DNA from: a bacterium
GTDB taxonomy: Bacteria > BMS3Abin14
Length of the DNA: 13,108 bases
NCBI GenBank assembly: GCA_020350725.1
Contig: CP070719.1
Coordinates: 2,244,801-2,257,908 of the forward strand
Reading direction: 5' to 3'
The translations under genes were made by a program, and so were the position numbers. The notes under the pieces are model-generated. The model saw nothing but the letters and a program-made list of their open reading frames with translations, was not told the DNA's origin and did not search any database. This document shows positions 10-12,168 of the stretch, piece by piece. Every line of letters starts with the position of its first letter. The stretch's first letter is position 1.

Positions 10-177
10 TATCCGAAAAGACCGTTCACAGTTCACGGTTCACGGTTGGCAAACCGCCGTGATTAGTGACTTGTGATTCGTGATTAGGTAACGAATTCAG
101 AGTCCAAAGTGCTAAGTGATATGTGATAAGTAACAGGTCAATAAACTTATCTCTTATCACTTATCTCTTAGGACTAT
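10..177. repeat. Degenerate heptameric repeat block A
   Basis: From about 10 to 177 the DNA reads as consecutive 7-bp words that stay in one register (word starts at 24, 31, 38 and so on to 171). The words change along the block. GTTCACR words (24-44) give way to a GTTGG/AACCGCC junction (45-58), GTGATTN words (59-86), AGTNNNA words (101-135), and TCTCTTA/TCACTTA words (143-170). Neighbouring words are near-copies of each other, yet the families differ. Positions 73-177 recur almost without gaps at 349-453. No open reading frame with coding character is present. The pattern resembles the short tandemly repeated repetitive (STRR) heptamers described in cyanobacteria, but with several word families chained together. 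Function is unknown. Confidence 0.85.
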
Positions 178-193
178 AATATCCTTCCTCCTT

Positions 194-241
194 CGCCCTC
201 TCGCCCCACCGCCCTACCGCCCATGCGCCCCTTCGCAATTA
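194..241. repeat. Octameric CGCCC-type tandem repeat
   Basis: Six consecutive 8-bp words begin with CGC at 194, 202, 210, 218, 226 and 234. Most have the form CGCCCNNN. This is a change of period from 7 to 8 between heptamer block A and the hairpin element that follows. A related C-rich run, less regular, precedes the equivalent hairpin element near 11868-11900. Confidence 0.7.
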
Positions 242-293
242 CTGTGGCCCTCTGTGGTGGCGTCTATAGGGACGCCTCTGTGTCCTCTGTGGT
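237..293. repeat. Conserved hairpin element, copy 1
   Basis: A conserved left flank (AATTACTGTGGCCCTCT at 237-253) leads into a perfect 6-bp inverted repeat, GGCGTC (259-264) and GACGCC (271-276), with a 6-base loop. A right flank of two 9-bp words of CTCTGTGNN type follows (276-293). The same flanks surround a different hairpin at 11901-11950. The stem arms differ between copies, but both copies can pair. Whether this acts as RNA or as DNA cannot be told from the sequence. Confidence 0.7.
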
Positions 294-300
294 AACGGCT

Positions 301-454
301 GGTTCACCGTTCACAGTTCGCAGTTGAGACCGCTGTGATTGGTGATCCGTGATTCGTGATTAGGTAACGAATTCAGAGTCCTAAGTACTCAGTGATATGT
401 GATAAGTAACAGCTCAATATACTTATCTCTTATCACTTATCTCTCAGAACTATA
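301..454. repeat. Degenerate heptameric repeat block B
   Basis: This is a second copy of the heptamer series of block A, in the same orientation. The offset is 276 bp from 349 onwards and 278 bp before that, because the central junction is 2 bp shorter. Word order is the same: GTTCACN, GTTGAGA/CCGCT, GTGATTN, GTAAC, AGTCC, AGTGATA, TCTCTTA. The copies differ by scattered substitutions rather than gaps, so the register is kept over 22 words. The block is followed by a CCTTCCTCCTTCGCCCT run shared with 183-199. That run overlaps the stop codon of the membrane spermidine-synthase-like gene (473-475). Confidence 0.85.
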
Positions 455-11540: not shown

Positions 11541-11612
11541 GGCAGCGGCTTTGACAGGATCAGTGGCGGGTTTGTCCGGCAGCGGAATAACCGCACGAAC
11601 TCACTCTGGCAC

Positions 11613-11641
11613 GTAATAAACCATTGGACGCCGGCGGTCAA
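11613..11641 (-). promoter_or_regulatory. Sigma-70-type promoter of the protease gene
   Basis: On the minus strand TTGACC (11636-11641, five of six consensus bases) is separated by 17 bases from TATTAC (11613-11618, four of six). Transcription would start near 11606, leaving a leader of about 65 bases before the protease ATG. It lies at the edge of the repeat block. Confidence 0.55.
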
Positions 11642-11664
11642 GGAGGAGGAGGGAGAAGTTTATG

Positions 11665-11812
11665 GTCTATAGTTTATAGTCTATAGTCTATTGGTTTGTA
11701 GTTTCCGGTTCACAGTTGGGAAACCGCCGTGATTTGTGATTAGTTAACCAATCCAAAATCCAAAGTCCCAAATCCAAAAGGATCGTTCACAGTTCACCGT
11801 TCACCGTTATAG
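11665..11812. repeat. Degenerate heptameric repeat block C
   Basis: Four GTCTATA-type words (11665-11692) are followed by one 8-bp word. Sixteen heptamers in a single register then run from 11701 to 11812: GTTCACA, a GTTGG/AACCGCC junction, GTGATTN, GTTAACC, AATCCAA/AGTCCCA, and GTTCACN again. The GTTCAC-GTTGG-AACCGCC-GTGATT order matches blocks A and B, more than 11 kb away in the window, in the same orientation. This block and block D fill most of the otherwise gene-free interval 11541-12168. Confidence 0.85.
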
Positions 11813-11844
11813 ATTGCTTCACCTGAGTCTCGGTTCGCCATGAC
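11812..11844 (+). repeat. GATTGCTTC...CGCCATGAC interspersed element, copy 1
   Basis: A 33-bp element begins GATTGCTTC and ends ATGAC. A diverged copy in the same orientation lies at 11973-12004, with most differences being transitions. Similar short elements of the form GATTGCTTCG...CGCAATGAC are familiar between genes in many bacterial genomes. Here they alternate with heptamer blocks. Confidence 0.55.
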
Positions 11845-11894
11845 AACCGCTTTATCTCTCCGCGTCCCCGTATCCCCGCGCCCGTCTATCGCCC

Positions 11895-11953
11895 CCTCGC
11901 AATTACTGTGGCCCTCTTTGGCGCTGCCCGCAGGGGCGCTTCTGTGTCCTGTA
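11895..11953. repeat. Conserved hairpin element, copy 2
   Basis: The flank AATTACTGTGGCCCTCT (11901-11917) and the right flank CTGTGTCCT (11942-11950) repeat those of copy 1 at 237-293. Between them GCGC (11921-11924) pairs with GCGC (11936-11939), and CCC (11927-11929) pairs with GGG (11933-11935), around a 3-base loop. The insert has the same length as in copy 1 but a different stem sequence. Confidence 0.65.
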
Positions 11954-11972
11954 TAGTCAAGGATTGTTTCGG

Positions 11973-12004
11973 GATCGCTTCGCCTGGGTATGGCTCGCGA
12001 TGAC
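11973..12004 (+). repeat. GATTGCTTC...CGCCATGAC interspersed element, copy 2
   Basis: This is a diverged 32-bp copy of the element at 11812-11844, beginning GATCGCTTC and ending CGCGATGAC. It lies between the second hairpin element and heptamer block D. Confidence 0.5.
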
Positions 12005-12035
12005 GGTGCAGGCGCAGGACTGCTGTGGTCTCAAA

Positions 12036-12126
12036 TTTTGGACTTTGGATTAATTTCTAATGTTCCAATTTCTAATGCTCTAATGCTCTGCTTCTGAACC
12101 GTGAACTGTGAACGGTGAACGGTGAA
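12036..12126. repeat. Degenerate heptameric repeat block D (inverted relative to C)
   Basis: Thirteen 7-bp words keep one register from 12036 to 12126: TTTTGGA/CTTTGGA, then CTAATG-type words, then CCGTGAA, CTGTGAA and CGGTGAA words. GTGAAC is the reverse complement of the GTTCAC words of blocks A-C, and TTTGGA mirrors TCCAAA of block C. Blocks C and D therefore form an imperfect inverted repeat around about 220 bp. The block ends about 40 bp after the stop of the haem sensor gene. Confidence 0.8.
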
Positions 12127-12168
12127 GAATTTTTTTGGATTACCCCGGTTTCCTCTGTAGACCTTGAC

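Follow-up and report, generated by a model that had tools for sequence, protein, structure and literature searches.

How can a stretch of bacterial intergenic DNA pass through unlike sequence families and still be read in words of 7 bp? This question is raised by positions 10-454 of the window, the 13,108-nucleotide stretch analysed here, which covers positions 2244801-2257908 of a 2.78-Mb single-contig genome. Relative to dinucleotide-Markov shuffles, the self-identity of 10-454 is 0.47 at lag 7 (z 11.1) and 0.43 at lag 14 (z 7.8), with adjacent lags at ~25%. The lag-7 signal is present in two blocks, A and B (z 8.9 and 7.1 against the same type of shuffle), and absent from 200-295 between them (z 0.0). 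Thus, the initial annotation was right to read both blocks as 7-bp words, and block A resolves into 23 heptads (Table 1). TRF reports period 7 at 24-47. Module a of block A and the first hairpin (24..58) fold with module b (z -3.4), and module h (238..295) is a small hairpin flanked by direct repeats.

Table 1. Repeat features of the window, with positions counted from its first letter
Feature	Position	Strand	Content	Basis
Block A	24-184	+	23 consecutive heptads	
Block A, heptads 1-9	from 24		GTTCACA GTTCACG GTTCACG GTTGGCA AACCGCC GTGATTA GTGACTT GTGATTC GTGATTA	
Block A, heptads 10-16			GGTAACG AATTCAG AGTCCAA AGTGCTA AGTGATA TGTGATA AGTAACA	
Block A, heptads 17-23	to 184		GGTCAAT AAACTTA TCTCTTA TCACTTA TCTCTTA GGACTAT AATATCC	
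Block A, module a and first hairpin	24..58	+	GTTCACA GTTCACG GTTCACG GTTGGCA AACCGCC	direct reading
Block A, module b	59..86	+	GTGATTA GTGACTT GTGATTC GTGATTA	direct reading, TRF
Block A, linking words	87..107	+	GGTAACG AATTCAG AGTCCAA; includes GAATTCAGAGTC	
Block A, core hairpin with heptad arms	101..177	+	AGTCCAA AGTGCTA AGTGATA TGTGATA ... TCTCTTA TCACTTA TCTCTTA GGACTAT	
C-rich spacer, module g (CGCCCTC-like)	185..232	+	without period 7	
Module h	238..295	+	CTGTGGCCCTCTGTGG-TGGCGTC-TATAGG-GACGCC-TCTGTGTCCTCTGTGGTAA; without period 7	
Block B	302-453	+	series of block A repeated	
Block B, module a and first hairpin	302..334	+	GTTCACC GTTCACA GTTCGCA GTTGAGA CCGCT	
Block B, module b	335..362	+	GTGATTG GTGATCC GTGATTC GTGATTA	direct reading, TRF
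Block B, linking words and core hairpin	363..453	+	duplicate of 87-177	
Second window locus	11657..11810	+	(AGTCTAT)n, GTTCAC, first hairpin, GTGATT, AATCCAA x4, GTTCAC x3	
Second window locus, opposite-strand part	12051..12126	-	GTTCAC, ATTAGAG, AATCCAA words; modules a, d, c	

A single 7-bp register, as initially proposed, is kept inside block A and most of block B, not over the whole of 10-454. Specifically, block B has a 2-bp loss at the first hairpin (GTTGAGA-CCGCT versus GTTGGCA-AACCGCC in block A), and 200-295 is aperiodic. Among sampled loci, 79 pairs place the first-hairpin junction mainly in three phases, with 40, 30 and 7 pairs each. The register is kept from GTGATT to AATCCAA (17/17) and from AATCCAA to GTTCAC (35/43), and the junction of GTGATTC with GTTCAC is shifted by 3 in 18/19. 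As the copies are related by descent, none of these counts is independent of the others. A register kept across unlike families is more than simple juxtaposition calls for; common descent of the copies explains it.

When A is aligned with B, 146 of 172 columns are identical. Among the loci read, the GAATTCAGAGTC variant is present in A and B only; L044 and L051, other copies with the same module fusion, have AATCCAA at its position. Judged from this comparison, A and B are a local duplication. The word order that they share, put forward in the initial annotation as fixed in both copies, therefore reflects one event rather than two and is not independent evidence.

The block of the window matched 103 places in the genome, and 40 of 208 candidates were scored. 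The genome sample comprises 173 kb, namely 35 repeat loci, five arbitrary 20-kb stretches and the window. Repeat blocks occur in one of the five arbitrary stretches (L080, two blocks). The sample contains 214 periodic segments at lag 7, with 118 and 42 at lags 14 and 8, minor lags at 16 (19 segments) and 21 (13) and at most five segments at every other lag from 3 to 30, while one shuffled copy gave a single segment at lag 8 and not any at lag 6 or 7. Autocorrelation, the check suggested with the initial annotation, thus returned a lag-7 excess over shuffles both here and in the genome sample. The weaker second period of 8, seen in L044-L078 and at window positions 202-222, apparently resides in C-rich words, CGCCCCAC and CCGCGTCC among them.

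The recurring word families number at least six: GTGAACN, AATCACN, ATCCAAA, ATTAGAG, CTTATCT with AGTGATA, and CTGGACT. Each block strings several families together, and each sub-array by itself has one word. Within blocks, 412 of 436 module marks are on the same strand and 24 on the opposite one. The arrangement of the modules is directional, approximately c/d - a - b - c - a - i - h - i - k - core - g - j, with some modules missing and others recurring. In an approximate test, for which block strings were transcribed and opposite-strand marks removed, the order asymmetry reached 220, whereas the highest value in 2000 shuffles was 130. It is this genome-wide order that upholds the claim of a fixed order. 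Of 42 clusters, none falls within a predicted gene, and the gene contexts are 13 tandem, 12 convergent and 6 divergent, with some loci counted twice. The second window locus has the same families as 10-454 plus AGTTTAT/GTCTATA words (TRF 11657-11808; lag-7 z 5.6 for 11541-12168). The region 10-454 is one internally duplicated copy of a composite repeat located at dozens of intergenic sites in the genome. The composite is a directed string of modules, mostly degenerate 7-bp arrays, parted by small hairpins and non-periodic spacers. Its word order is fixed because the whole composite was copied, and does not come from a 7-bp process.

The dispersal could be that of a non-autonomous mobile element, in which a Y1 (HUH) transposase recognises the hairpins, as RAYT/TnpA-REP does REP, so that the composite transposes. 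The genome has two Y1_Tnp genes, the hairpins are of significant stability, and the dozens of dispersed copies are strand-consistent. However, neither of the two Y1 genes is flanked by repeat copies. The gene at 1208563 lies between inverted ends that belong to it, GGGGTCGCATCTTGCCTTTTAACC and GGTTAAAAGGCAAGATGCGACCCC, at a locus with no match to heptad modules, and the gene at 1167023 is in a frame of GGGGTCAGAG and CTCTGACCCC, with a heptad module only outside the frame. In addition, the composite copies have variable ends, partial module sets and no fixed termini, and the plasmid and phage collections contain no match, which also led us to reject carriage by plasmid or phage. On balance, transposition of the composite is unlikely. 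The Y1 gene of L085 (G000:C1:1208563), with its two inverted ends, is likely a separate small mobile element.

The dispersed copies are very improbable as an artefact of short-read contigs joined at repeats, because the same word families are found in independent assemblies of relatives and other lineages, and the copies differ from one another and sit between different genes. What speaks for such an artefact is that runs of ~100 N, probably scaffold gaps, are often in or beside repeats, and that a G/C-only junk stretch is present at one L073 site. The N runs include L044 1103-1202, L057 60-159, L116 and others, and are probably gaps where the assembly broke. The low-complexity stretch (L073, ~300-430) adjoins an inverted copy of the neighbouring module and is probably an assembly error.

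Array length differs by whole 7-bp units between copies in one genome. Specifically, the spacing from CCGTGAT to AATCCAA is 16, 23, 30 or 37 and falls in one class modulo 7 in 17/17 cases at sampled loci. The same is true for GTTCAC to GATTGCTTCAC (13, 20, 27, 34 or 41; 43/47), for the TCTGGAC pair (14 or 21; 36/37) and for AATCCAARA to GTTCAC (14, 21, 28, 35 or 42; 35/43). Copy-to-copy alignments contain 259 gaps of length 7 versus 58, 84 and 70 of lengths 5, 6 and 8, an excess that aligning periodic DNA itself favours; the flank distances are free of that weakness. Gaps of 1 to 2 outnumber 7-base gaps, and 7 is the peak among gaps over 4 bases. These spacings support the proposal in the initial annotation of a 7-base process, in the form of one that adds and deletes 7 bases at a time.

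The words also change along the arrays. Over 53 blocks, identity decays from 0.434 at lag 7 to 0.398, 0.325, 0.295 and 0.281 at lags 14, 21, 28 and 35, with a background of ~0.26. Neighbouring heptads of block A share on average 3.95 of 7 positions, and heptads two, three and four words apart share 3.38, 2.4 and 2.0. Part of this likeness between neighbours is clustering of like words. Stepwise drift can be followed in the AGTNNTA series of block A (AGTCCAA, AGTGCTA, AGTGATA, TGTGATA), and in other genomes, as in GTTCACA GTCCACT GTAAACT (G004) and GTTCACC GTTCACT GCTGACA GCTTACT GCTCACT (G299).

The unit is exactly 7 in many words that are unrelated to each other, and in some stretches of the chain the words drift without leaving the register. 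A dedicated templated mechanism, like telomerase, a diversity-generating retroelement or a retron, might produce both by writing 7-base words. However, the genome, scored 100% complete, has no RVT_1 match, the same search having matched in 3 of 14 control genomes. Moreover, there are many words, not one template, and ordinary slippage yields the same pattern. We give templated writing hardly any credence.

Selection for a structured RNA or a regulator-binding array, for example in 3'-end processing or translation control, was considered with the core hairpin. In 27 aligned copies, the consensus fold has z of -4.9 and -5.5 on the two strands, and the distance from 5' arm to 3' arm is 32 in 34/36. 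Many copies are near gene 3' ends, and 12 of 31 contexts are convergent, with some loci overlapping. However, compensatory change was not detected in the core hairpin: 89.8% of cells are paired versus 89.9% in shuffles, with one double change in 764 cells. The preservation of the hairpin therefore reflects recent descent, not demonstrated selection. An Rfam search matched no family, position and orientation relative to genes vary, and in other genera the orthologous intergenic sites lack the 10-454 composite. Specifically, the orthologous site of the gene at 473-2677 has other modules or words in three other genera. Such differences at orthologous sites show turnover, not its mechanism, and the sites have diverged too far to serve as empty sites in a comparison for target-site duplication. 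Maintenance of the composite by selection is improbable, and neither selection on structure nor the selection on spacing suggested in the initial annotation is supported, given the lack of compensatory change and the varying phase of the first hairpin. The module GATTGCTTC..GCAATGACA presumably resembles palindromic repeats of many bacteria.

We consider it probable that slippage of 7-bp units together with point mutation built the arrays, and that ordinary duplication and recombination spread the composite. The nascent strand would slip by one 7-nt word in replication or repair, so that an array grows or shrinks. Point mutations would make neighbouring words drift apart, and long arrays would come to read as successive word families. 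The assembled composite would be copied, whole or in part, to other intergenic sites by segmental duplication, recombination or gene conversion. On this view, the composite need not have a function and may for the most part be neutral DNA that is tolerated in the gaps between genes. Core copies less than 5 kb apart are 0.948 alike versus 0.894 for distant ones (p 0.002, three pairs only), and the two cores of L057, 2 kb apart, are identical. Loss of mismatch repair was rejected as a cause because MutS is present in the genome; loops of 7 nt as a rule escape mismatch repair.

Some observations are against slippage with ordinary duplication. Slippage leaves the spread of one directed composite to many sites unexplained, and a dispersal enzyme was not identified. 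Word families sometimes meet at sharp junctions, where 0 to 2 of 7 positions agree, and drift therefore does not connect all of them. As to the unit itself, heptanucleotides are the most abundant long-repeat class in most genomes, and slippage was offered for heptanucleotide repeats with 7 nt as the proposed polymerase contact length (Mrazek 2007, to the extent cited in PMC4679880). It is doubtful, if conceivable, that bacteria replicate or repair DNA with an inherent 7-nt copying step, whatever the sequence, with the composites here as its oldest products. If that were true, intergenic DNA under relaxed selection would turn into drifting, in-register chains of 7-bp words.

Heptad arrays are widespread in general, and the period is specific. 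The compared set contains 12 genomes of the source family, and a second genome of the source genus did not appear in it; the nearest relatives listed after the family have no rank below the domain in common with it. Of 386 genomes, 22 contain GTGAACN x3 and 14 contain AATCACN x3, with 16 and 7 of these, respectively, lying outside the family, while the GTGAAC word at period 8 is found in 1 of 346. Control words of similar composition are found in 4 of 386 (AGCAGTN x3), 3 (CAAGTGN x3, the backward control) and 0 (TGGCAAN x3), and by these counts only GTGAAC looks enriched. Horizontal spread of particular words between phyla was rejected on the same controls (0 to 4 of 386). Because control words also occur, shared words need not mean transfer, and word sharing between genomes is weak evidence for it.

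Several arrays elsewhere were observed in passing. Upstream of an HtrA-like protease gene (window 11541-12168; L131, L133), three genera have heptad arrays of different words, maybe by chance, with several words here, CTTATCC in G008 and GTAAACT in G004. In other lineages, GTTCAC arrays are apparently inside reading frames (L101; L115 in G133; L114 in G299; L107 in G243), and the G243 array is within what looks by eye like an S-adenosylhomocysteinase gene. L030 (G010) is an array of ~28 words that alternates GTGATTA, GTGATGG and GTAATTG and has higher-order periods above 7.

Heptanucleotide LSSR (Mrazek et al. 2007), as summarised in PMC4679880 and PMC4692102, are likewise mostly intergenic 7-nt tandem arrays with unit-wise length variation, for which slippage with 7 nt as the polymerase contact length was proposed; GTGATTA is cited there from Helicobacter pylori. 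In common with LSSR and STRR, the arrays here have a unit of 7 above chance, whole-unit variation between copies within a genome and a mainly intergenic location; the blocks do not have one principal word each. Compared with LSSR as summarised there, at least six families in one genome are here strung with hairpins and spacers into a directed, repeated composite. TAACTGA repeats (MacGregor 2015, PMC4679880) also form heptamer arrays between genes, alongside other heptamers in some genomes, and have strain-specific histories. They differ in that a single word predominates, frequently immediately upstream of a start codon, and the available part of that paper reports no genome-wide module order. 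For these repeats in Beggiatoaceae, 3'-end processing or translation control was suggested. The same part of the paper describes indels in steps of 7 nt that separate Cyanothece strains, a mixture of heptamers in Microcystis, and Bacteroidetes assemblages that combine several heptamers. The Microcystis case indicates that the contrast drawn in the initial annotation with cyanobacterial STRR, as arrays mainly of one word, was overstated. STRR and the G-rich heptamers of Xanthomonas and Nostoc (GGGAATC, GGGGA(T/C)T; PMC4692102) share degenerate 7-bp units at many intergenic loci, but are single-word and G-quadruplex-forming, whereas the words here are not G-rich. REP/REPIN and small palindromic dispersed repeats (e.g. 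PMC3116915) are likewise many dispersed intergenic hairpins. In contrast to a short palindrome with fixed ends, the composite is much longer and compound, with heptad arms and with ends and module sets that vary, and a linked RAYT was not found.

Arrays of heptamers, arrays that mix words, and strain differences by 7-nt indels are thus already published (PMC4679880, PMC4692102). The number of word families and their directed order may be new, on the weak evidence of a search that found no description of them and left many relevant papers outside. Because many word families in one genome have the same 7-bp step, the step is separable from any particular word. Strain comparison and reporter assays could thereby address the old question of why bacterial long repeats favour 7 nt. 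The directed composite is a natural record of small intergenic repeats assembling and spreading without an evident transposase.
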